Positions 1,291-52,200 of a DNA stretch of 52,734 bases are shown one piece after another. The notes below the pieces were generated by a model that was given only the letters and a program-made list of their open reading frames with translations, searched no databases and was not told the origin of the DNA. The stretch covers positions 1 through 52,734 of the forward strand of contig JAADIA010000044.1 in the NCBI GenBank assembly GCA_013151555.1. Direction: 5' to 3'. Position 1 is the first letter of the stretch. Each line of letters opens with the position of its first letter. Origin of the DNA: Nitrospirota bacterium. Lineage in GTDB: Bacteria; NPL-UPA2; JAADIA01. A program made the position numbers and the translations under genes.

Positions 1291-2982
1291 ATGGATATGG
1301 ATAGACGTGAATTTTTGAAAATGCTTGCTGCCTCAACTGCTGCATCCGTTTTATTCACCAATATTTCCGGTTGTGGCTTCCTCTCTGCTGAGGAAAAACC
1401 TAATATCCTCTTAATCTTAAATGACGATATGGGGTATTCCGATCTTGGCTGTTATGGCGGGGAAGTTCAGACTCCCAATCTCAATTCATTGGCGGCTAAC
1501 GGCTTGCGCTACACTCAATTTTATAATACTGCCCGGTGCTGCCCATCCCGGGCGTCACTGTTGACCGGTTTATATCCGCAGCAGGCGGGTGTAGGCCACA
1601 TGATGGATGATGACCTGCTCGACGGTTATCGTGGAAACTTAAGTCTCAATGCGGTAACCATTGCCGAAGCATTAAAAAATGGCGGATACGCCACCTATAT
1701 GACCGGCAAATGGCATGTTGCCCGTTCCGTAAAAAAGGATAAATACAACTGGCCGAACCAGCGGGGTTTTGATGACTACTACGGTATTATTACCGGAGCT
1801 GCAAATTATTTTCAGCCCCGTACCCTGACCCGAAATAATGAACAGTTTTTACCTGAAGGTGATGACTATTACTTCACCGATGCTATTTCCGACGAGTCCT
1901 CCCGGCAGATTCGCGAACATGCGAAAAAACAATCCGATAAACCATTTTTTCAGTACGTCGCCTATACTGCTCCTCACTGGCCTCTGCATGCTTTTCCTGA
2001 AGATATTGCCAAATATAAAGGACGCTATGATGCCGGATGGGATCAACTGCGCCGGGAACGTCGTCAACGGATGATCAACATGGGTATCCTTCGGGAAGAG
2101 TGGGAGTTAACCAAACGGGATTCACGCGTACCACCCTGGGAAGAAGCTGAAAACAAAGAGTGGCAGGTTCGGCGCATGGAAGTCTATGCCGCCCAGATAG
2201 ATCGTATGGATCAAGGTATCGGACGTATCTTGCAAACGCTCAAGGATACCGGGCAGTGGGAAAATACCCTGATTATCTTTTTAGCTGATAACGGTGGCTG
2301 TGCCGAAATAATTAGAGAACATTGGAAAAACTGGATGGTACCAATTATAGCTACGGCAAAAACACGTGACGGACGCGATGTCCGGTTTGGCAATAATCCG
2401 GCCATAATGCCGGGGGGTGAAGATACCTACCAAAGCTATGGCATTGCCTGGGCGAATGTATCCAATACACCCTTCAGATTATATAAGCACTGGATACATG
2501 AAGGCGGAATTTCGACTCCCTTCATCGCCCATTGGCCTGCAGGTATTAAAGCGAAAAACGAACTGCGGCATCAACCCGCACAGTTACCGGATATTATGAC
2601 CACTTTCCTGGATATTGCCAATGTTGAATATCCGTCTTCTTATAACGGGCGGGAAATAAAACCTGGGGAAGGGTTCAGTATGACGCCGACATTTAAGGGT
2701 AACCCTCACAAACGGGATGTTCTTTATTGGGAGCACGAAGGGAATAAAGCCGTCCGGAGAGGTAAATGGAAATTAGTCCGTAAGTATCCGGGAGACTGGG
2801 AACTCTATGATATTAAAGCTGATCGTACGGAAACCAACAATGTTGTCAAGGACTATCCGGAAAAAGTCGGGGAACTTACCAAGCTTTATGAACGATGGGC
2901 TGAGCGATGTGAAGTGGTCCCATGGAACGAACTGCTTGAACTGAGGAAGAAAAGACGGGAAGAAAGGAAAAATAAAACCTGA
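1291..2982 (+). CDS. Sulfatase with Tat-type, possibly lipoprotein, signal
   Basis: Type I sulfatase of 563 residues. The start at 1291 follows a strong AGGAGG site; an in-frame extension back to 1210 has no such site. The N-terminus shows a twin-arginine signal (DRREFLK, residues 4-10) and an ISGC lipobox-like stretch near residue 28, so export by Tat and perhaps lipid anchoring are inferred. The catalytic motif is C83-C-P-S-R87; C83 should be oxidised to formylglycine. NDDMGYSDLG (metal ligands) and FLADNGG are also present. It is strikingly similar to the sulfatase at 4510-6099, which lacks any signal. Overall sequence resembles arylsulfatases; the true substrate cannot be read from sequence. 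Confidence 0.95.
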   Translation: MDMDRREFLKMLAASTAASVLFTNISGCGFLSAEEKPNILLILNDDMGYSDLGCYGGEVQTPNLNSLAANGLRYTQFYNTARCCPSRASLLTGLYPQQAGVGHMMDDDLLDGYRGNLSLNAVTIAEALKNGGYATYMTGKWHVARSVKKDKYNWPNQRGFDDYYGIITGAANYFQPRTLTRNNEQFLPEGDDYYFTDAISDESSRQIREHAKKQSDKPFFQYVAYTAPHWPLHAFPEDIAKYKGRYDAGWDQLRRERRQRMINMGILREEWELTKRDSRVPPWEEAENKEWQVRRMEVYAAQIDRMDQGIGRILQTLKDTGQWENTLIIFLADNGGCAEIIREHWKNWMVPIIATAKTRDGRDVRFGNNPAIMPGGEDTYQSYGIAWANVSNTPFRLYKHWIHEGGISTPFIAHWPAGIKAKNELRHQPAQLPDIMTTFLDIANVEYPSSYNGREIKPGEGFSMTPTFKGNPHKRDVLYWEHEGNKAVRRGKWKLVRKYPGDWELYDIKADRTETNNVVKDYPEKVGELTKLYERWAERCEVVPWNELLELRKKRREERKNKT

Positions 2983-2999
2983 AATAAGGAAGGAAAATC

Positions 3000-4382
3000 A
3001 TGGATATTGATAGACGTGAGTTCCTGAAGAAGTTAGGTTTGAGTTTAGGCCTCAGCGCTATTGCCTCGCCATTAAATATTTTTACCGGATATGCTGCCGA
3101 TACCCGCAAACCCAATTTTGTGATTTTGCTGGGTGACGACTGTACCTGGAGCGATATTAGCTGTTACGGTGGACAGGCCATAATGCCAAATATCAATAAA
3201 ATGGCCAAACAAGGTATCCGCTTTGAGCAGGCCATCGGATCTACGGCTATGTGTACTCCTACCCGTCATTCCCTTTATACCGGCATATATCCAATTAAAC
3301 GGGGTGGGTACAAGAATCATAGCGCCGTGAAAAAAGGCACTAAGAGTATCGCTCATTACCTTAGGGATTTGGGCTACCGGGTTGGGTTAACAGGAAAATG
3401 GCATATTGCTCCCAAAGAATCGTTCCCCTTCGAAGTAGTCGATGGCTTCCCGAAAAACTGCGTGCTGCAAAAGACCCCACGTCCCGATTTAACCGGTCCA
3501 AAAGAATTTATGACGCGTAATGCGGAAGAACCCTTTTGCTTGGTCATTGCCTCCGTTCACCCTCATGCACCCTGGACTGAAGGCGACCGTTCGCAGTATC
3601 CTGTCGATTCCCTCAAGCTGCCGCCCAATTGGGTCGATACCCCGGAAACCCGTTCCGAGTACCAAAAATATCTGGCGGAACTGACGGAATTAGATCGGCA
3701 GGTAGGTACCGTGATGAATCTCCTGCAGGAAGAGCAACTGGCGGAAAATACGATCTTCATTTTTGCCAGTGAACAGGGCGCCCAATTTCCCTTTGCCAAG
3801 TGGACGCAATGGGATGGTGGCATCAAGTTCGGGATGATTGCTTGTTGGCCGGGAAAAATCAAAGCAAACAGTACTACGGAGGCTTTGGTTCAATATGAAG
3901 ATTTCGTACCTACATTGATCGATGCTGCAGGGGGGGCATCTGTGCCGGGAATTGACGGGCGTAGTTTTCTTAATGTCCTCCTTGGCAAAACAGACGAACA
4001 TCATGACTATGCCTTTGGCGTCCATTCCAATACTCCTAAAGGCCCCCCCTACCCGATTCGCTCCATCCGCAGCAAAAAGTATAAACTAATTCTTAATTTG
4101 CTTCCTGATTCCACCTACTATCAGAAATATCTGATGGGATACGATGCAACCTGGAAGTCATGGGTTGAAAAAGCTAAAACCGATAAACATGCCGCCTGGG
4201 TGGTTAAACGTTTTGAAAAGCGTCCGGAGATTCAGTTCTACGATGTGGAGAATGATCCCTATGAGATTACCAATCTTGCCGAGGAGCCGAAATATGCCGG
4301 GATCATTAAGGAGATGCGCACTAAATTAGAAGCCTGGATGAAATCCCAGGGAGATACCGGCATCGATACAGATGTATTATAA
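3000..4382 (+). CDS. Sulfatase with Tat signal, heparan-N-sulfatase-like
   Basis: Type I sulfatase of 460 residues starting 17 bases after its upstream neighbour, behind AAGGAAGG. It has a Tat signal (DRREFLKKLG) and a hydrophobic stretch ending near GYAAD. The catalytic motif is C85-T-P-T-R89. Metal-site sequence LLGDDCTWSD (with Asp-Asp) and the C-terminal block 'FYDVENDPYEITNLAEEP' are present. The usual S-D-H/N-G motif is replaced by SEQGAQFPFAKW, a pattern I associate with sulfatases related to N-sulfoglucosamine sulfohydrolase. A different substrate from its neighbours is therefore likely, though that assignment is inference. Confidence 0.94.
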   Translation: MDIDRREFLKKLGLSLGLSAIASPLNIFTGYAADTRKPNFVILLGDDCTWSDISCYGGQAIMPNINKMAKQGIRFEQAIGSTAMCTPTRHSLYTGIYPIKRGGYKNHSAVKKGTKSIAHYLRDLGYRVGLTGKWHIAPKESFPFEVVDGFPKNCVLQKTPRPDLTGPKEFMTRNAEEPFCLVIASVHPHAPWTEGDRSQYPVDSLKLPPNWVDTPETRSEYQKYLAELTELDRQVGTVMNLLQEEQLAENTIFIFASEQGAQFPFAKWTQWDGGIKFGMIACWPGKIKANSTTEALVQYEDFVPTLIDAAGGASVPGIDGRSFLNVLLGKTDEHHDYAFGVHSNTPKGPPYPIRSIRSKKYKLILNLLPDSTYYQKYLMGYDATWKSWVEKAKTDKHAAWVVKRFEKRPEIQFYDVENDPYEITNLAEEPKYAGIIKEMRTKLEAWMKSQGDTGIDTDVL

Positions 4383-4390
4383 AGTATCCG

Positions 4391-4421
4391 GAGGGAACAA
4401 AGAAATCCTTATTGTTCCCTC
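4391..4421 (+). other. Stem-loop after third sulfatase
   Basis: Perfect 10-bp inverted repeat, GAGGGAACAA at 4391-4400 and TTGTTCCCTC at 4412-4421, with an 11-base loop, just after the stop at 4382. No T-run follows, so a classical intrinsic terminator is not supported. It could be an RNA-processing or stabilising hairpin splitting the sulfatase run into two units. Confidence 0.5.
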
Positions 4422-4436
4422 ATCACCGGAGCGGAA

Positions 4437-4461
4437 TTATTATCATATGAATTGATAATAA
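4437..4461. promoter_or_regulatory. Palindrome upstream of sulfatase-maturase pair
   Basis: Perfect 9-bp inverted repeat TTATTATCA at 4437-4445 and TGATAATAA at 4453-4461, with a 7-base spacer, 48 bases before the fourth sulfatase. AT-rich symmetry and position suit a regulator-binding site for the sulfatase-maturase pair. No regulator is identified in the window. Confidence 0.4.
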
Positions 4462-4509
4462 CTGGTTGAATTACAAAACTAAAGTTACTATTAAGGAGAT
4501 GAACGAAAA

Positions 4510-6099
4510 ATGAGTAAGCCTAATATTATTTTAATCTTAAACGACGACATGGGATATTCGGACCTTGGCTGTTATGGCGGAGAAGTTCAGACTCCCAATC
4601 TTGATTCATTGGCGGCTAACGGCCTGCGTTACACTCAGTTCTACAATACGGCCAGATGTTGTCCTTCCCGGGCATCGTTGTTGACCGGTTTGTATCCGCA
4701 CCAGGCCGACGTAGGTCACATGACGGAAGATGACGGAGTCGACGGCTATCTGGGGAACTTGAATCCCAATACGGTGACTATTGCCGAAGGCCTGAAAAGG
4801 GGTGGTTATGCCACCTATATGTCCGGCAAGTGGCATGTTACCCACTTTGTTAACGGGCCCAAAGATAACTGGCCGTGCCAACGGGGATTTGACAAGTACT
4901 ACGGGATTCTCACCGGGGCGGCAAATTATCACCAGCCACGCACTCTCACTCGGAACAATGAACGCATTGAACCGGAGGATGAAGATTATTTCCTCACCGA
5001 TGTTATTTCCGATGAAGCCATCCGCCAGATACGTGAGCATACTGAAAAACATTCTCACCGGCCCTTCTTTCAATATGTTGCCTATACCGCGCCCCACTGG
5101 CCATTGCATGCCCACCCCGGGGATATTGCCAAATATAAGGGACGTTATGACGCCGGCTGGGATCAACTGCGACAGGAACGTTTGCAACGGATGATCGAGA
5201 TGGGTATCATTCACCGGAGTTGGAAATTAACCGAACGGGATCCGTGCGTACCGCGATGGGAAGAGGCAGACCACAAGGATTGGCAGGTGCGCCGGATGGA
5301 AGTTTATGCTGCCCAGATCGATCGCATGGATCAAGGCATTGGACGTATCTTGCAAGCACTCAAAGATAGCGGGCAGAGTGACAATACTTTGATTGTATTT
5401 TTATCCGACAACGGCGGCTGTGCGGAAGAAATCGAAAAAGATTGGCAGGAATGGATCACCCGGGGAGGGGAACAAATCGGCACTTCAAAAACGCGAGCTG
5501 GACACGATGTGCAATATGGCAATGACCCCACGATAATGCCGGGGGGAGAAGAAACTTACCAAAGCTATGGAGTTCCCTGGGCCAATGTTTCCAATACGCC
5601 CTTCAGGCTTTATAAACACTGGGTACATGAGGGCGGAATTGCCACCCCCTTGATTGTGCATTGGCCCGGAGGGATCCCGGCGAAAGGCGAGCTGCGCCGG
5701 CAACCGGCACAATTGCCGGATATTATGGCTACTTTCCTGGACCTGGCCGGGGTCGAATATCCGTCTGCTTATAATGGGCAGGAGGTAAAACCTTTGGAAG
5801 GTTTCAGCCTGGCCCCGACATTTGCAAACGGACCACCTCCCCGGGAGGTGCTTTACTGGGAACACGAAGGCAACAAGGCTGTCCGAAAAGGTAAATGGAA
5901 GCTGGTTTGTAAATATCCCGAGGACTGGGAACTTTATGATATGGAAGCAGGACGAACGGAAACCAAAAATATCGCCGCAGATCATCCCGGGATAGTTAAA
6001 GAACTTGCCGACCTCTATGAACAATGGGCCCGGAGGTGCAAGGTAATGCCATGGGATAAACTGCTCGAACTTCGAAAACAAAAAGCAGCTAAACGCTGA
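4510..6099 (+). CDS. Sulfatase without signal peptide (paralogue of 1291-2982)
   Basis: Type I sulfatase of 529 residues, preceded by AAGGAG. From 'KPNIILILNDDMGYSDLGCYGG' onward it shares very long identical runs with the sulfatase at 1291-2982. The catalytic motif is C50-C-P-S-R54. It begins directly at the catalytic domain, with no twin-arginine or Sec signal, so it is predicted to be cytoplasmic, or its annotated start is genuine and it acts on imported oligosaccharides. The maturase starts 21 bases after its stop, which suggests co-transcription. A recent duplication with loss or gain of the signal is inferred. Confidence 0.95.
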   Translation: MSKPNIILILNDDMGYSDLGCYGGEVQTPNLDSLAANGLRYTQFYNTARCCPSRASLLTGLYPHQADVGHMTEDDGVDGYLGNLNPNTVTIAEGLKRGGYATYMSGKWHVTHFVNGPKDNWPCQRGFDKYYGILTGAANYHQPRTLTRNNERIEPEDEDYFLTDVISDEAIRQIREHTEKHSHRPFFQYVAYTAPHWPLHAHPGDIAKYKGRYDAGWDQLRQERLQRMIEMGIIHRSWKLTERDPCVPRWEEADHKDWQVRRMEVYAAQIDRMDQGIGRILQALKDSGQSDNTLIVFLSDNGGCAEEIEKDWQEWITRGGEQIGTSKTRAGHDVQYGNDPTIMPGGEETYQSYGVPWANVSNTPFRLYKHWVHEGGIATPLIVHWPGGIPAKGELRRQPAQLPDIMATFLDLAGVEYPSAYNGQEVKPLEGFSLAPTFANGPPPREVLYWEHEGNKAVRKGKWKLVCKYPEDWELYDMEAGRTETKNIAADHPGIVKELADLYEQWARRCKVMPWDKLLELRKQKAAKR

Positions 6100-11581: not shown

Positions 11582-11750
11582 CCGCCATAGGCGGATAATT
11601 TTAATTCGCACTTATCATCCGCCTTGGGCAGGCGATGTGCTCACTCACTTGCTTAAACAAGGGGAAATTCTCTGCGATAATTTCCCCTTAAGCGGCGGAG
11701 TTAATTCGCACTTATCATCCGCCTAGGCGGATGATGTGCTCATTAAGGAG
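11582..11750 (+). repeat. Composite hairpin repeat with embedded ribosome-binding site
   Basis: Four parts lie in order: a CCGCC-ATA-GGCGG palindrome (11582-11594); a partial unit TTAATTCGCACTTATCA...ATGTGCTC (11601-11642); a perfect 11-bp hairpin AAGGGGAAATT/AATTTCCCCTT (11659-11669 and 11679-11689); and a full unit (11701-11750). The full unit starts TTAATTCGCACTTATCA, has a perfect palindrome TCCGCCTAGGCGGA in the centre (11718-11731), and ends TGATGTGCTCATTAAGGAG. The final AAGGAG is the only good ribosome-binding site of the gene at 11758. Related copies lie at 24138, 44868 and 45327. Confidence 0.85.
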
Positions 11751-11757
11751 TCTGAAT

Positions 11758-12813: not shown

Positions 12814-12967
12814 TATAGGACACGGATGAACACAGATTTAAAAGGTCAAGGAAATTCGTAACCAAGATTTAATTTTAAGAAATTAAAAGAAAATATGACA
12901 GGATGTACAGGATTAAACAGGATGGATATGGTTAAAAAAATATCCGGTTTATCATGTTAATCCTGTC
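12814..12967. repeat. Word repeats, CACAGATT then inverted ACAGGAT pair
   Basis: A GGACACGGATGAACACAGAT copy begins just after the dehydrogenase stop. It is followed by GACAGGAT at 12897-12904 with further ACAGGATTAAACAGGAT words, and by the complementary ATCCTGTC at 12960-12967. The arms could fold into a long imperfect hairpin filling the gap before asd. Confidence 0.7.
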
Positions 12968-24137: not shown

Positions 24138-24195
24138 CTCCTCAATGAACACGTGACTTATGGAGTGTTAACGAACATAAGTCACTGTGTGAATT
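24138..24195 (-). repeat. Hairpin repeat ending in a ribosome-binding site (divergent copy)
   Basis: On the minus strand the unit begins AATTCACACAGTGACTTATG, loops through 13 bases, and closes CATAAGTCACGTGTTCATTG followed by AGGAGG, which serves the thioredoxin-like gene. The 10-bp stem pairs 24153-24162 with 24176-24185. The outer frame AATTCACAC...GTGTTCATT.AGGAG matches the copies at 45327 and 11701; the stem core differs. Confidence 0.7.
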
Positions 24196-24196
24196 G

Positions 24197-24256
24197 ATCC
24201 CGCCGAATATGCCAAAATTATAGAATAGAATTTTGGTATATCTTATGAAGCGGGAT
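24197..24256. other. Long imperfect hairpin
   Basis: ATCCCGC (24197-24203) pairs with GCGGGAT (24250-24256). Inside, ATATGCCAAAATT (24207-24219) pairs with AATTTTGGTATAT (24229-24241) with one mismatch around a nine-base loop. It sits between the HMA gene and the thioredoxin-like gene, directly next to the repeat at 24138. It could attenuate or stabilise the transcript; no T-run follows on the minus strand. Confidence 0.5.
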
Positions 24257-26892: not shown

Positions 26893-26967
26893 TTTGTCTC
26901 CTCCTATACTATTGAAGGTATTATCAAATATCTTTCCCCACTCCCGCTCAAACTCCCCACTTCTTCT

Positions 26968-27164
26968 GACAGGATGAACAGGATTAAACAGGATACAGAT
27001 AATGAGCTAAAGAAAAACTCTAAGAAAACTTTTTAAACCTTGAAGCACTGAAAAACTGCTTCTTCCGGGTTTCTTTAGTTCCGTACTTCCGTAGTTAATC
27101 TTTTATCCTTTACATATTTCAAGAAATCCTGTCTATCCGGCCGGCCTACTCGGTTAATCCTGTC
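26968..27164. repeat. Inverted ACAGGAT word-repeat pair
   Basis: GACAGGAT (26968-26975) continues as GACAGGATGAACAGGATT with a further AAACAGGAT. The complement ATCCTGTC closes at 27157-27164, with another copy near 27127. Between them lies a second word class (TTCCGTACTTCCGTAGTTAA). The pair fills the gap between copA and the beta-propeller gene. Confidence 0.75.
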
Positions 27165-29929: not shown

Positions 29930-30100
29930 CGGATTAAAAACACAAAAAACTAAAATAATTTCAAAAGCAGATAGGATTAACAAGATTTACAGGATAGTTT
30001 TTTCAAAGAATAAAAGCCTTAGTAAATTTTTAAAAAAATCAATTTAATCCTGTGAATCCTGTCATGTTTTATTTTCTCTGTGTTCACCTGTGATTTATTA
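29930..30100. repeat. Nested inverted word repeats (CACAG and ACAGGAT)
   Basis: AGGATTAACAAGATTTACAG (from 29973) is mirrored by TTTAATCCTGTGAATCCTGT (from 30043). Outside them an ACGGATTAAAAACAC word (29937 on) faces CTGTGTTCACCTGTGATTT (30077 on). The outer right arm overlaps the last codons and stop of the methyltransferase gene at 30084. Confidence 0.7.
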
Positions 30101-35589: not shown

Positions 35590-35822
35590 TAAATCTAAAA
35601 TCTAAATTTCAAAATCCAAATAAATCGCTAAAGCCCAAACACATGAAGAAAATTCTATAATTTTTTTGACAGCCTGCCTGCCACAGGTAGGGATGAACAG
35701 GATTGACAGGATTGTTTTACTTTTTCTGTAGTTATTAATCTTAATCCCATCTTCATCCTGTGAATCCTGTCAGAATAATTGCAGTTTTTTTATTTGTCAT
35801 TTGGGTTTTGTCCTTTGTCATT
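35590..35822. repeat. Three classes of word repeats with a nested palindrome
   Basis: First, AAATCTAAAATCTAAATTTC words (35591 on). Second, an ACAGGAT pair: GACAG (35668-35672) and GATGAACAGGATTGACAGGA (from 35692), facing TCATCCTGTGAATCCTGTCA (35753 on). The left arm is split by a 19-base imperfect palindrome at 35673-35691 (CCTGCCTG...CAGGTAGG). Third, TGTCATTTGGGTTTTGTCCT (35796 on), which is inside the end of lgt. Confidence 0.75.
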
Positions 35823-40362: not shown

Positions 40363-40714
40363 TTACCACGGAAACACAGAAATATGGAAATTTTTAATTT
40401 ATAATAACCCTTTTTATTGTGATTCTTATCCTAAAAGTGTAGTCATCCATAATCTTCTCCCTCATCCTGCTAATCAGAACCTTCTTTTGAACGGAAGAAT
40501 CAGTTTTTTTCAGTGTTTCCGTGGTTACGAAGTTTTCTTGGAGATTTTCTTTATCTTATCATCTGTATCCTGTTTAATCCTGTTAATCCTGTCTGGAATT
40601 CTTTAAAGGATTCTTTCTCTTCCTCTCTGTTTTAGGAGAAGAGCCTTTATTGTTAGGGTTTCTTTACTAAGCTCATTTTTCAGTGTCTCCGTCCTTCCAT
40701 ATCTCTGTGATTTT
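40363..40714. repeat. Word repeats filling a 357-base gap
   Basis: CCACGGAAACACAG (40367 on) is mirrored by CAGTGTTTCCGTGG (40511 on). A TCCTGTTTAATCCTGTTAAT word (ACAGGAT class) follows at 40567. CAGTGTCTCCGTCCTTCCAT at 40681 lies inside the end of the RND permease gene. No open frame, promoter or RNA gene is apparent in 40323-40679. Confidence 0.7.
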
Positions 40715-44683: not shown

Positions 44684-44860
44684 TTAATGTTGCTTATGGC
44701 TCTTATGCTTTTCCTTCCGCAGATACTTTTCCGGGTCTTCTTCAAACTCCGACTGGCATTCCGGACAACAGAGATAATAAGTCTCACTCTTATATTCTAC
44801 TTTGGCATAGGCTTTATTCCTGTTGATTTTTCTGCCGCAAACCGGGTCATGATAAAACAT
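44684..44860 (-). CDS. YHS-domain metal-binding protein, 58 aa
   Basis: Stand-alone YHS domain. MFYHDPVCGRKIN begins with the D-P-V-C motif (C8), and YYLCCPECQSEFEEDPEKYL supplies C31, C32 and C35. A His/Lys-rich tail (KHKSHKQH) may also bind metal. The ATG at 44860 uses AAGGAG that belongs to a hairpin repeat (44868-44963). YHS/TRASH domains are linked to heavy-metal binding. First-pass gene finders may miss it because of its length. Confidence 0.88.
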   Translation of the reverse strand: MFYHDPVCGRKINRNKAYAKVEYKSETYYLCCPECQSEFEEDPEKYLRKEKHKSHKQH

Positions 44861-44867
44861 AGCTTAT

Positions 44868-44963
44868 CTCCTTTTAATGAGCACATCACTTAGTGCCAGC
44901 TAAGTGATAAGTGCGAATTAACTCCGTAGCTTAAGGGGAAATTGTCGGAGAGAATTTCCCCTT
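44868..44963 (-). repeat. Composite hairpin repeat with embedded ribosome-binding site
   Basis: Read on the minus strand, CTCACTTGCTTGGAC leads into the 11-bp hairpin AAGGGGAAATT/AATTTCCCCTT (44953-44963 and 44933-44943, nine-base loop), then TTAATTCGCACTTATCA, a stem CTTAG...CTAAG, TGATGTGCTCATTAA and AAGGAG. Order, spacing and most bases match the element at 11643-11750, apart from the centre of the second hairpin. It ends eight bases before the YHS start at 44860. Confidence 0.88.
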
Positions 44964-45326: not shown

Positions 45327-45376
45327 CTCCTTAATGAACACATCACTTAGTGAAACTAAGTGATAAGTGTGAATTA
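45327..45376 (-). repeat. Hairpin repeat with embedded ribosome-binding site
   Basis: On the minus strand: TAATTCACACTTATCA, stem CTTAG-TTTCA-CTAAG, TGATGTGTTCATTAAGGAG. It matches the second hairpin of the element at 44868 with three or so changes in the arms. AAGGAGG is the ribosome-binding site of the YHS gene at 45316. The first hairpin (AAGGGGAAATT) is absent here. Confidence 0.85.
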
Positions 45377-45417
45377 CCCGATACTTGACCTCCTTTTGCC
45401 TTTTGAGTTACCGGAAT

Positions 45418-48495: not shown

Positions 48496-49230
48496 CTATC
48501 CCCTCATCCAGCCTATACCCCAGGATTGGAGGTAGGAAGAGATAATAGAGAAATAGTTAGTAAATATCAAAACCCCCACAGCTAACAAAAAGATTCCCGA
48601 GATTATCTGAATCAACCGCATATGTTTCTGAACCTTTTTGAAATGAACCAGGAAGGAATTTATGGCCAGGGAGGTGATAAAGAGAGGAAGTCCCAATCCC
48701 AGAGAATAAGCCGTTAGCAGCTTAATACCCGAACCCACGGAACCGGTGGTGCTCGCATAAAGTAAGATGGTGCCCAGAATAGGGCCCACACAGGCCGTCC
48801 AGCCCATGGCAAAAGCATTCCCCACCAAATAGGAACCCCATAATCCGGAAGGTTTCCGGGTGAAACCAATCTTTGCCTCCCGGCTCAGAAAACTCCATCT
48901 CAATAGCCCCATAATGTACAGGCCGAAGAGGATAATTAAGATACCTCCCGCCTTCCGAATAACATTTTGATAATCGTGGAGAATTTTTCCGGCAAAACTT
49001 GCTGAAGCTCCCAGCAGAATGAAGATAGTGGAAAACCCGGCGATGAAAAGAAGCGAGTGCTTTATAGTTATTATCTTGATTCTCCCTCTATCAAATTCCT
49101 GGGTTAACTCCTGAAAAGATAAACCCGTAATATAGGAAACATAGGAAGGGAGTAAAGGCAAAACACAGGGGGCGATAAAGGATAAAAATCCGGCCCCGAA
49201 GGCAATGAATAAAGAGATGTTCTGGTCCAA
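48496..49230 (-). CDS. ccdA: CcdA-type cytochrome c/thiol-redox membrane protein (copy 1)
   Basis: Six-helix membrane protein of 244 residues that passes electrons from thioredoxin to periplasmic thiols. The two redox cysteines are C22 (FIAPCVLPLLPSY) and C147 (TACVGPILG). It starts 20 bases after the TlpA-like gene. Copy 2 at 50880-51611 is closely related, starting with an almost identical N-terminus; here the second motif has Ala before the Cys rather than the usual Pro. Confidence 0.92.
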   Translation of the reverse strand: MDQNISLFIAFGAGFLSFIAPCVLPLLPSYVSYITGLSFQELTQEFDRGRIKIITIKHSLLFIAGFSTIFILLGASASFAGKILHDYQNVIRKAGGILIILFGLYIMGLLRWSFLSREAKIGFTRKPSGLWGSYLVGNAFAMGWTACVGPILGTILLYASTTGSVGSGIKLLTAYSLGLGLPLFITSLAINSFLVHFKKVQKHMRLIQIISGIFLLAVGVLIFTNYFSIISSYLQSWGIGWMRG

Positions 49231-49250
49231 GAATATTTCCTCCTAAACGA

Positions 49251-49904
49251 TTACTTGGATTTAAGAAGCCCTTCAATTAAATCGCGGGTGCCCTGGGTAA
49301 ACCAGTCCCGATAGCCTATCTCCCTACCGATCATCTTTCCTTCCCGGTTAATCAAATAGGAAGTAGGAGTTCCGGTAATTCCATACAGAGTATCTACTCT
49401 CCCGGTGGGATCCAACAGCCCGGAATCGCCAAAGAAAGTGTATCCGGATTTCTCAACAAAAGGCACAACCGCCCTAGCTCCTTCCCGATCACTGAAAACA
49501 GCCACGATAACAAAATCCTGGTCTTTGAATTGCTCATAAAGCTTCTGCAAAGAAGGCATCTCTTTACGGCACCAGTGACACCAGGTAGCCATGAAATTCA
49601 AAAGTATAATCTTGCCCCGGTAATCTTTTAAACGAACCTTCTTGCCGTCCAGATTATCCAGTTCAAAATCAGGAGCAGCCACATCTTTCCCCATCTTCTG
49701 AATTCCTAAGGAACGCATAAGCTTATCAAGACGTTTAGAGCTTGCTGTCCCGGAATTGGATATCTGCTGGCCGGTTTCCCGGGCAGGTCTTTCCTTTTTT
49801 GCTTTAAACTGTGGATAAAGCAGAAGAACAAAGGCCCCAAGAATTACAATTGAAATCACGGTTATGACATACGGCGTTCTTCTTTTTAAATTTTCCCCAG
49901 TCAT
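49251..49904 (-). CDS. TlpA-like membrane-anchored thioredoxin (copy 1)
   Basis: Protein of 217 residues with an N-terminal membrane anchor (about 11-30) and a thioredoxin-fold domain: FMATWCHWCRKEMPSLQ gives the redox pair C109-x-x-C112, and GITGTPTSYLINREG holds the cis-Pro. It would receive electrons from the adjacent CcdA and reduce periplasmic disulfides, as in cytochrome c maturation. The start overlaps the stop of a broken methyltransferase gene (ATGA). GGAGG lies nine bases upstream. Confidence 0.92.
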   Translation of the reverse strand: MTGENLKRRTPYVITVISIVILGAFVLLLYPQFKAKKERPARETGQQISNSGTASSKRLDKLMRSLGIQKMGKDVAAPDFELDNLDGKKVRLKDYRGKIILLNFMATWCHWCRKEMPSLQKLYEQFKDQDFVIVAVFSDREGARAVVPFVEKSGYTFFGDSGLLDPTGRVDTLYGITGTPTSYLINREGKMIGREIGYRDWFTQGTRDLIEGLLKSK

Positions 49905-50103
49905 TTATTTTTTCCTCCTTTCAACTTCATCTCTCTTTTCTCCCGGTAAGTTTCCCCGAACTTCCCGGCCAATTCCCTTTCCTCTTTTCCGGCTAATCGA
50001 TAGTAAGCAACCATCAACATTGGTCTCATAAGAAGAGCAGGGATAGCCTACCCCTGAATAAGCATGCCCAAGGCAATGAGAATCAATCCTGAATATGGGG
50101 GGA
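49901..50103 (-). pseudogene. Remnant of an isoprenylcysteine-methyltransferase-like gene
   Basis: The minus strand encodes a decayed copy of the C-terminus seen in the intact gene at 30084-30758: PPYSGLILIALGMLIQ, then a TAG stop at 50048-50050, then ALLMRPMLMVAYYRLAG and KEERELAGKFGETYRE. Alignment places the stop where the intact protein has Pro (Q-W-P-T-I became Q-G-stop-A-I). The front half is missing. Its final TGA overlaps the ATG of the TlpA-like gene, so the ancestral gene was translationally coupled to tlpA. Confidence 0.85.
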
Positions 50104-50174
50104 TTAAAAAATTCTAACGGCAACAAATAATATATACTTTTGTAGTTAAATTAGTTGGATAAGAGATAAGGGAC

Positions 50175-50534
50175 TTATAGTAGATATGAAGAATTGAGGA
50201 TATATGCTTGAATTTTGGAAATTTTGCTATCCGGCCTGTTGAGAGTTAACCGGAGAGAAGGTTTTTCTTCAAATGGCAATTTAGCTATTTGTCCAGATGG
50301 ATAACTCTGCTTGAAGGAAGGGTAAGAAGAATAATTCTTAGGAACTTGAATAGAGCCGGAGCTGATTAATACTTGAGGAAGGAGACCGGAAGAACATTCT
50401 TCAGTCCCTAAACTCTGCCCTTGATTATGAGAGACGGCCGCGAAGGAATCGCTTGAACAATTCCAATTTGCAAGAAATAGAAAAGCTGCGGCAATCAAAA
50501 CAACTGCTGCTAAATATCTTCTTCCGCTCATCAT
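50175..50534 (-). CDS. Exported protein of unknown function, 119 aa
   Basis: Short protein with a probable signal peptide (residues 7-24, hydrophobic, then NWNCSSD) and a polar mature region rich in Ser, Lys and Pro. Three cysteines, no recognised family. Ribosome-binding sequence is weak (GAGTGAG). A TTGACA at 50605-50610 on this strand may begin a promoter. It lies between the broken methyltransferase and the second CcdA-TlpA copy. Moderate confidence that it is real. Confidence 0.5.
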   Translation of the reverse strand: MMSGRRYLAAVVLIAAAFLFLANWNCSSDSFAAVSHNQGQSLGTEECSSGLLPQVLISSGSIQVPKNYSSYPSFKQSYPSGQIAKLPFEEKPSLRLTLNRPDSKISKIQAYILNSSYLL

Positions 50535-50879
50535 TATATCAACTCACTCTGGCTCAGTTTTCCCCATCATCCAGATTTAAGTTAGTATCACATCCTACCG
50601 GTACTGTCAAGAAAAAAACTTCCGGTCATTATATACCACCAAGGCATTATGATAGTTAAATGACAAATGAAAAAACCCAAATGACAAATTGTAACGGACT
50701 ATAGACCATAGACTAAAAGATTTTTGTGGTTTTTGTCTAAAGTCTGATGTTTTAGGTCTGAATTCTATTATTGGGATTTTATCGATCGGACACACCAGTC
50801 GGCAGGGAGATGCTCTCCCAGCATGTCTATTAGGGACAGTGGCCGCTATAGCAGCCGGCAAACACTATTAGGTAGGTCA
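50535..50879. other. Gene-poor gap with word repeats
   Basis: Contains a possible minus-strand -35 (TTGACA at 50605-50610) with no convincing -10. Then come a GACAAATGAAAAAACCCAAA word block (50662 on; class also at the end of lgt) and a GGACTATAGACCATAGACTA block (50696 on; class also at 25858). The last 120 bases have a short plus-strand open frame without a supported start. No gene is called. Confidence 0.55.
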
Positions 50880-51611
50880 TCAGGACATCCAACCTACCCC
50901 CCAGGCTTGGAGGTAAGAAGAGAGGATAGAAAAATAATTAGTAAATATCAAGACTCCCACTACTAACAAAAAGATTCCCGAGACCACCTGAACCAGCCGC
51001 ATATGTCTCTGAACCTTTTTGAAGTAAATTAGAAGAGAGTTAATGGCCAGGGAAGTAATAAAGAGAGGAAGTCCCAATCCCAGGGAATAAGCCGTCAACA
51101 ACCTGATTCCTGAACTAATAGAACCAGTGGTGCCCGCATAGAACAAAATGGTACCCAGGATGGGACCCACGCAGGGCGTCCAGCCTACGGCAAAGGTATT
51201 CCCCACCAAATAGGAACCCCATAAGCCGCGAGGCTTCCTGGAAAGACGAATCTTCGCCTCCCGGCCCAGGAAATTCCATCTCAACAAACCCATAATGTAG
51301 AGACCGAAGAGGAAAATTAATACCCCCCCTACCTTCCGAATTACATTTTGATAATCAAGAAGAACTTTTCCCACAAAACTTGCTGAAGCTCCCAGCAAAA
51401 TGAAGATAGTGGAAAATCCGGCAATGAAGAGGAGGGAATGTTTTATGGTTATTATTCTGATTCTACTCCTATCATTTTCTCCCGTTAACTCCCGAAAAGA
51501 TAAACCCGTAATATAAGAGACATAAGAAGGAATTAAGGGCAGAACACAGGGGGAGATAAAGGACAAAAGACCCGCTGAGAAAGCAATGAACAAAGAAATA
51601 TTCTGGTCCAA
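50880..51611 (-). CDS. ccdA: CcdA-type cytochrome c/thiol-redox membrane protein (copy 2)
   Basis: Paralogue of the protein at 48496-49230, 243 residues, with redox cysteines C22 (FISPCVLPLIPSY) and C147 in the canonical TPCVGPILG. Six hydrophobic segments. It begins 13 bases after the TlpA-like copy 2 stop. Closer to the family consensus than copy 1, so copy 1 may be the more derived of the pair. Confidence 0.93.
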   Translation of the reverse strand: MDQNISLFIAFSAGLLSFISPCVLPLIPSYVSYITGLSFRELTGENDRSRIRIITIKHSLLFIAGFSTIFILLGASASFVGKVLLDYQNVIRKVGGVLIFLFGLYIMGLLRWNFLGREAKIRLSRKPRGLWGSYLVGNTFAVGWTPCVGPILGTILFYAGTTGSISSGIRLLTAYSLGLGLPLFITSLAINSLLIYFKKVQRHMRLVQVVSGIFLLVVGVLIFTNYFSILSSYLQAWGVGWMS

Positions 51612-51624
51612 AAGGTATTACTCC

Positions 51625-52200
51625 TTATTCAGACCCCAGAAGTCCTTCGATCAAATCGCGGGCATCCTTGCTGAACCACTCCCGATATCCTACCTCCCAA
51701 CCGATTATCTTTCCCTTCCGGTCGATCAAATAAGAGGTGGGAGTTCCGGTAACCCGGTAGATGCCGGCCACTCTCCCGGTAGAATCCAACAGCCCGGAGC
51801 TCACAGAGAAGGTGTACCCGGATTTCTTGATGAAAGGCCCCACCACCCGGGCTCCTTCCCGGTCGCCGAAAACAGATACGATCACAAAATCTCTGTCTTT
51901 GAACCGGTCATACAGCTTCTGCAGATGAGGCATCTCCTTGCGACACCAGTGACACCAGGTAGTCATAAAATTTAAAAGCACAACCTTCCCCCGGTAGTCC
52001 TTCAAGCTTACCTTCTTGCCCTTCAGGTTAAACAGGGTAAAACCAGGAGCTTCTTTCCTCTTTTTAATTTCTTGAATACCCAGAGTGCTAAAGAGCCGGC
52101 TCATTTTTTCGGAAGATACCTTCTCGGCCGCTCCTGCTTTTACCGGAACGGGCAGCAGAATAGCCGCCAGGGCAGCAGATAAAAATATCCTTTTCAACAT
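51625..52200 (-). CDS. TlpA-like exported thioredoxin (copy 2)
   Basis: Protein of 191 residues when started at the ATG at 52200, which follows AAGGAG by nine bases and gives a neat signal peptide (MLKRIFLSAALAAILLPVPV, cleavage near KAGA). Starts up to 24 codons earlier are possible. The redox motif is C83-H-W-C86 (TTWCHWCRKEMPHLQ), with the cis-Pro in VTGTPTSYLIDRKG. Unlike copy 1 it may be released into the periplasm rather than membrane-anchored. Paired with CcdA copy 2. Confidence 0.9.
   Translation of the reverse strand: MLKRIFLSAALAAILLPVPVKAGAAEKVSSEKMSRLFSTLGIQEIKKRKEAPGFTLFNLKGKKVSLKDYRGKVVLLNFMTTWCHWCRKEMPHLQKLYDRFKDRDFVIVSVFGDREGARVVGPFIKKSGYTFSVSSGLLDSTGRVAGIYRVTGTPTSYLIDRKGKIIGWEVGYREWFSKDARDLIEGLLGSE

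Follow-up and report, generated by a model that had tools for sequence, protein, structure and literature searches.

The hairpin repeats that stand before four genes in the window (the whole stretch of 52,734 nucleotides analysed here) are probably members of a non-autonomous family of palindromic mobile DNA, REP/MITE-like in kind, that is built from one or more imperfect palindromes and inserts at TAA. The element would enter most often at the stop codon of the upstream gene, and insertion would leave TAA on both sides of it. Entry of this kind would place the start of the element at the stop codon and its end before whatever follows TAA, either a Shine-Dalgarno sequence (TAAGGAG) or a start codon (TAAATG). 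The hairpins appear to be an undescribed, phylum-wide element family, and the host bacteria are known almost only from metagenomes.

Results

Hairpin copies and their parts in the window

An initial annotation had placed repeats at four loci, and all were found: four copies of a hairpin that we call hpA, one on the forward strand (11701-11750) and three on the reverse strand. The parts, with scores from a covariance model (R1), are as follows.

11601..11645, forward strand: upstream hairpin (hpA type) in the composite, TTAATTCGCAC...GTGCTCACT, with TCCGCC as stem core; exact pattern match, and R1 match at 11600-11651 with 35.5 bits
11644..11700, forward strand: middle hairpin of the composite, hpB, CTC-AC-TTGCTTA-AACA-AGGGGAAATT ctctgcgat AATTTCCCCT-TAAGCGG-CG-GAG; fold z -4.6
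11701..11746, forward strand: terminal hpA before the dehydrogenase gene; 3' foot ATTAA, the final TAA of which runs into host GGAG; R1 74.4 bits
11747..11750, forward strand: GGAG, the core of the Shine-Dalgarno sequence before the dehydrogenase gene, taken to belong to the host and not to the element on the analogy of empty sites, where this sequence is retained
24140..24198, reverse strand: terminal hpA before the thioredoxin-like gene; feet TCAAT/ATTGA, stem GTGACTTATG/CATAAGTCAC; core TTC..TCAT at 24145-24193
44874..44921, reverse strand: terminal hpA before the small YHS-like gene (44684-44860); R1 71.9 bits
44922..44979, reverse strand: hpB upstream of the 44874-44921 copy; inverted repeat I2, 88%, in common with 11634-11717; hpB core at 44937-44961
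45331..45377, reverse strand: terminal hpA before the gene of a 111-aa YHS protein; R1 74.1 bits

Two of these hairpins, 11601-11645 (hpA type) and 11644-11700 (the second type), were absent from the initial annotation; since they lie directly upstream of the 11701 copy, the first locus is a composite, hpA'-hpB-hpA. By Pfam, the downstream genes encode an isocitrate/isopropylmalate dehydrogenase, a thioredoxin_3/glutaredoxin protein and a YHS protein, and the second YHS-like gene (44684-44860) takes its identity from ORF reading alone.

The window holds other repeats as well. A further dispersed repeat (AATCCTGTTAATCCTGTC with its complement), unrelated to the hairpins, occupies five intergenic sites (12883-12967, 26958-27055, 30043-30075, 35751-35782 and 40506-40607) and includes an 88-nt inverted pair, 26968-27055 / 40506-40593. 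Two long direct-repeat pairs of 72-82% identity, at 1396-6082 and 48505-52050, resemble tandem gene duplications.

Fold, covariation and a specific mismatch

The hpA copies of the window fold alone as (TTAAT)TC(GCAC)nn(stem)...(GTGC)TC(ATTAA), with z of roughly -3.6 to -3.9 in the two types that were folded. This architecture begins with an outer stem, or foot, and a 2x2 TC/TC mismatch (GA/GA on the opposite strand); a stem of 4 bp follows, then a freely varying distal stem, with 2 nt bulged on the 5' side between the two. Compensatory changes were seen at 8 of 19 pairs in 17 copies. In a larger set of 117 copies, 17 of the 19 pairs had changed on both sides and 98.5% of cells were paired, as against 28-41% in slid controls of the same alignment. 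The stem cores named in the initial annotation substitute for one another with full compensation, and its refuting condition of stems that do not covary does not refute the family.

Because the 117-copy alignment had been fitted to R1, an independent scan was made for hairpins with any internal-loop dinucleotide pair, in 494 kb of r-protein operons picked regardless of hairpins. TC/TC hairpins numbered 46, compared to a median of 2 over all 256 dinucleotide combinations, and the nearest other combinations, TT/AA (43) and AA/TT (29), are self-complementary, that is, continuous stems. The constant TC/TC mismatch near the hairpin foot is specific. The foot itself covaries (TTAAT/ATTAA, TCAAT/ATTGA, TAAAT/ATTTA, TAAGT/ACTTA). 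A promoter reading of the TATAAT-like 5' foot was dropped, since the bases of this foot change together with those on the 3' side (CAAT/ATTG, AAAT/ATTT), something not required of a promoter.

Distribution across genomes

A strict pattern matched 20 sites in the window's own 1.8 Mb genome and none in a reversed control. In the same genome R1 gave 27 sense matches (1.2e-17 to 2.3e-9), plus many weaker ones. The genome thus has more than 20 copies in 1.8 Mb. Matches to R1 were found in 4 of 40 other genomes only, all of the same phylum. When about 85,000 species genomes were scanned by pattern, at least 108 stretches came back; among the matches listed, nearly every title names an Omnitrophota/Omnitrophica MAG, and a few name no phylum. 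R1 matches, 10 to 54 per genome, were present in each of the 16 genomes searched on the basis of these loci. The hairpins are best read as an element family spread through Omnitrophota and the relative from which the window comes. The hpB core occurs in 19 copies in the window's own genome versus 0-1 in each of eight relatives, a difference that looks like a lineage burst and is counted for mobility.

No match to the family was found in viral contigs or in plasmid and phage collections. By title and abstract, none of the open-licence literature on palindromic repeats, hairpins or RNA motifs in Omnitrophota/Omnitrophica deals with such repeats.

Position between genes

In the r-protein operon sample all 46 hairpins are intergenic, though 89.5% of bases are coding. 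Sense hairpins end at the Shine-Dalgarno sequence or directly at the start codon, and antisense hairpins occupy the opposite end of the intergenic space, where most start exactly at the TAA stop codon (TAAGTGAGGAC...); antisense copies also lie in convergent spaces. A 344-kb contig of another genome has the same positional pattern. Placement at random relative to start codons, which the initial annotation had named as evidence against its proposal, is not what we observe, for the copies are non-random relative to genes. At several junctions one hairpin fills the entire space, TAA-TTCGCAC...GTGCTCAT-TAAATATG, and composite copies have the form TAA-GTGAGGAC...GTGCTCAT-TAA, in which the ends are inverted and flanked left and right by TAA.

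At the target site, clean pairs have TAA on both sides, while the right flank covaries with the inner foot. Neither the association of the upstream stop codon with the right-flank trinucleotide (p 0.19) nor that of right-flank length with empty spacing (n=10) was significant. As the right trinucleotide does not significantly follow the stop codon, plain target duplication is unproven. Other repeat families use the same niche: at one locus (L184, genome G049), a different repeat (AACCAGAAACCAGTTGTACCCTGTCGGGTACAGG...) fills the tuf/rpsJ, rpsJ/rplC and rplW/rplB junctions.

Empty and occupied junctions in relatives

Junctions were compared among related genomes at 85-92% r-protein identity, with gene starts assigned by scripted homology, so that single bases at some junctions may be off. 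Base by base, the comparison is clean for about four junctions only. Empty junctions probably show what stood there before insertion. The rpsD/rpoA junction is TAAgaGGGGGTAATAAATG when empty and TAA-element-TAAaGGGGGTAATAAATG when occupied. The corresponding forms are TAAgATG and TAA-element-TAAtATG at rplF/rplR, TAGaaATG and TAA-element-TAAaaATG at rplR/rpsE, and, at rplX/rplE, TAAaaATG or TAAacATG and TAA-one hairpin-TTAACATG. Before a pilT-like gene, the empty site ATTAAGGAGG, whose case in G049 bears a Shine-Dalgarno sequence, stands against the occupied forms TCAT-TGAGGAG and TCAT-TAAGGAG. Given that empty sites already possess a Shine-Dalgarno sequence or start codon, both belong to the host, and TAA is the point of entry.

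The hairpin had been credited with supplying the ribosome-binding site of the gene behind it. This claim fails, as the Shine-Dalgarno sequence is the host's at empty sites (rpsD/rpoA; the pilT-like gene in G049) and some copies precede ATG with no such sequence. The narrower statement that the last bases of the repeat are the Shine-Dalgarno sequence of the next gene describes the window, where one follows all four copies, but not other lineages, where the hairpin often ends directly at ATG.

Gain and loss can be followed at single junctions. At rpsG/fusA, G046 and G049 have the element in common, whereas G047 and G053 are without it; the simplest reading would be an insertion in a common ancestor of the first two. 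The rpsQ and rplN genes overlap or nearly touch in most genomes and are 55-134 nt apart in G046, G042 and G067; the gap in G046 and G042 carries hairpins. In G045, two neighbouring junctions have nearly the same core with different feet. Orthologous junctions of related genomes mostly carry different cores, and the same junction can be free in close relatives. Comparison of these genomes shows that copies are gained and turned over, that they stand at gene boundaries, and that the clean cases carry TAA at either end; it gives no sign that pairing is kept up at the mRNA level (see below). The element recurs before groEL, ribH and pilT-like genes in distant genomes, which hints at hot spots or at some selection on where copies persist.

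Two further observations concern these junctions. In G063 (L193) several r-protein junctions have the composite's middle spacer (CTTGCCATTTTGCGG...CGCAAAATGGCAAGG) in almost identical form, a sign of recent copying or conversion. At rpsH/rplF and rplE/rpsZ (L202, L203 and L210, in G045, G066 and G042), short junctions TAAGTGAGGACATAAGTCTATG match the left hairpin's first half and include a GAGGA Shine-Dalgarno sequence; such junctions may be what lost elements left behind, or the source of the elements.

Pairing on the mRNA strand

Stems read on the mRNA strand contained 27 G-U versus 33 A-C (10 versus 12 in the fitted set, 17 versus 21 in the second set). In tRNA acceptor stems of the same sequences the counts were 8 G-U and 1 A-C (Fisher p 0.03), a small control with a clear direction. 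A fold maintained in mRNA would be expected to have G-U in excess of A-C, and because this is not seen, upkeep at the mRNA level is unsupported. These counts make it more likely that hairpin pairing is maintained in the DNA, or restored through copying.

Discussion

Mobility and its possible mechanism

We propose that the element might move as a single-stranded DNA hairpin by means of a putative enzyme, its internal foot pairing with the TAA flank as a guide in the manner of an IS200/IS605 guide-target pair. IS200/IS605-derived MITE-like elements use guide-target pairing at the hairpin foot. They resemble the present family in that the foot pairs with a short fixed flank and insertion takes place beside a TA-rich short target; they differ in that our family has equivalent inverted hairpins at both ends, and no TnpA relative was found with them. 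Covariation of the foot would fit a foot-guided Y1 HUH single-strand transposition. Y1 transposases occur in 24 of 26 genomes, and the hairpin-bearing genomes G001 and G044 have no Y1 match. None of 31 loci examined in hairpin-bearing genomes, a part of the Y1 (PF01797) genes found, has a TC/TC hairpin within ~1.5 kb, and in a search for an autonomous element the genes between left and right ends were all ordinary, none transposase-like. One Y1 transposase gene (L021, G000:C1) is bounded by inverted AAAGGGGACAGGCTACTTT-type ends, which are unlike the hpA/hpB hairpins.

A doubtful version of the mobile-element reading, and a variant of it as opposed to an alternative to mobility, is a DDE-type MITE with inverted-repeat ends (RTGAGSAC) and TAA duplicated as a 3-bp target, which an insertion sequence, lost or distant, would cross-mobilise. 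Composites with inverted ends and TAA on both sides speak for it. More generally, the family has the marks of a MITE in its inverted-repeat ends (GTGAGGAC/GTGCTCAT), lack of coding capacity and lineage-specific burst. Against the DDE version, flank and inner bases of the element covary (TTAAT/ATTAA, TCAAT/ATTGA, TAAAT/ATTTA), which simple target duplication would not yield; single asymmetric hairpins also insert, as at rplX/rplE, and no transposase is seen between the ends.

Relation to known repeats

Among described families, the GTAG REPs, BIMEs and REPINs associated with RAYTs (PMC2817692, PMC3733652) are likewise short imperfect palindromes, single or in mosaics of both orientations, intergenic and in high copy. 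Our family, too, consists of high-copy extragenic imperfect palindromes that often form mosaics, but it has a TAA flank, the TC/TC mismatch and the 2-nt bulge, and in place of a GTAG/GTGG head the GA-strand consensus reads TTAATGAGCAC / TAAGTGAGGAC. GTAG REPs often supply the TAG stop codon of a flanking ORF (PMC3733652), and RAYT genes have their REPs on either side (PMC2817692); the hairpins described here end flush with both the stop codon and the start codon or Shine-Dalgarno sequence, and no flanked Y1 gene was seen in 31 loci. A REP/BIME is marked by its head and by a RAYT gene set between two inverted copies of the cognate REP. As the family lacks the head and showed no such gene in the loci examined, it is not filed as a REP/BIME, although it works like one. 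The CGTC-tagged palindromes, including the RPEs of Rickettsia (PMC3733652), are also small mobile palindromes in many copies; no CGTC tag was seen in our family, and RPEs lie inside reading frames whereas the hairpins lie between genes. The TAACTGA repeats of Beggiatoaceae (PMC4679880) are similarly abundant and intergenic, with a post-transcriptional role proposed, and are short direct repeats, not hairpins with covarying stems.

Host function and RNA control

Many occupied intergenic spaces fold as hairpin chains. They might be structures selected for the host, such as an mRNA stabiliser, an insulator or a re-initiation bridge, and spread by gene conversion. Occupied spaces do fold far better than others (median z -6.8 versus -1.3), some are tiled with hairpins that leave 2-5 free bases, and several highly expressed genes carry the element. 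We nonetheless hold selection of this kind to be improbable, considering the gain and loss among close relatives, the lack of a G-U preference, and a median of 14.5 free external bases that is little lower than the 16 of shuffled sequences.

The initial annotation left two readings standing, a mobile element that lands before genes and a shared RNA switch. The first has held; the second gives way to mixed gene functions, empty sites, inverted copies and stems indifferent to G-U. As a cis-acting leader, a riboswitch or protein-binding hairpin, the repeat would open or close the Shine-Dalgarno sequence of a regulon, and the strong stem covariation, the sense orientation adjoining the start, the recurrence at some orthologous genes (e.g. 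groEL and ribH) and the pairing of the 5' foot with the AA of AAGGAG would all suit it. Yet the downstream genes, which the initial annotation had wished to see tabulated, are unrelated housekeeping genes that share no function and no regulon theme. Antisense copies lie at stop codons and in convergent spaces, orthologous sites are empty in close relatives, most occupied r-protein genes (11/15) have no Shine-Dalgarno sequence to control, and the mRNA strand prefers G-U no more than A-C. A search of Rfam with the window and five loci from relatives and Omnitrophota gave no match above the gathering score. We regard such a leader as highly improbable. The neat landing of a mobile element between a stop codon and a start signal explains the look of a regulatory leader, and is a trap for annotation and for RNA-motif searches. 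Integron attC sites were set aside, as the attC core consensus was not seen and the genes form conserved housekeeping operons.

Consequences for r-protein operons

The element is present in r-protein operons, where it parts genes that normally overlap, many of which have no Shine-Dalgarno sequence: 11 of 15 r-protein genes at occupied junctions are without one, as compared to 228 of 680 at empty junctions. A tentative and, on the whole, unlikely elaboration would make this a new kind of phylum-wide mobile element, with a putative enzyme and a foot-flank pairing that picks TAA, in which a near-gapless chain of hairpins between stop and start keeps the element harmless, ribosomes restarting on genes that have neither a Shine-Dalgarno sequence nor an overlap. 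The r-protein genes that lie behind the element with no Shine-Dalgarno sequence pose a testable question on translation re-initiation, and the missing enzyme poses another.
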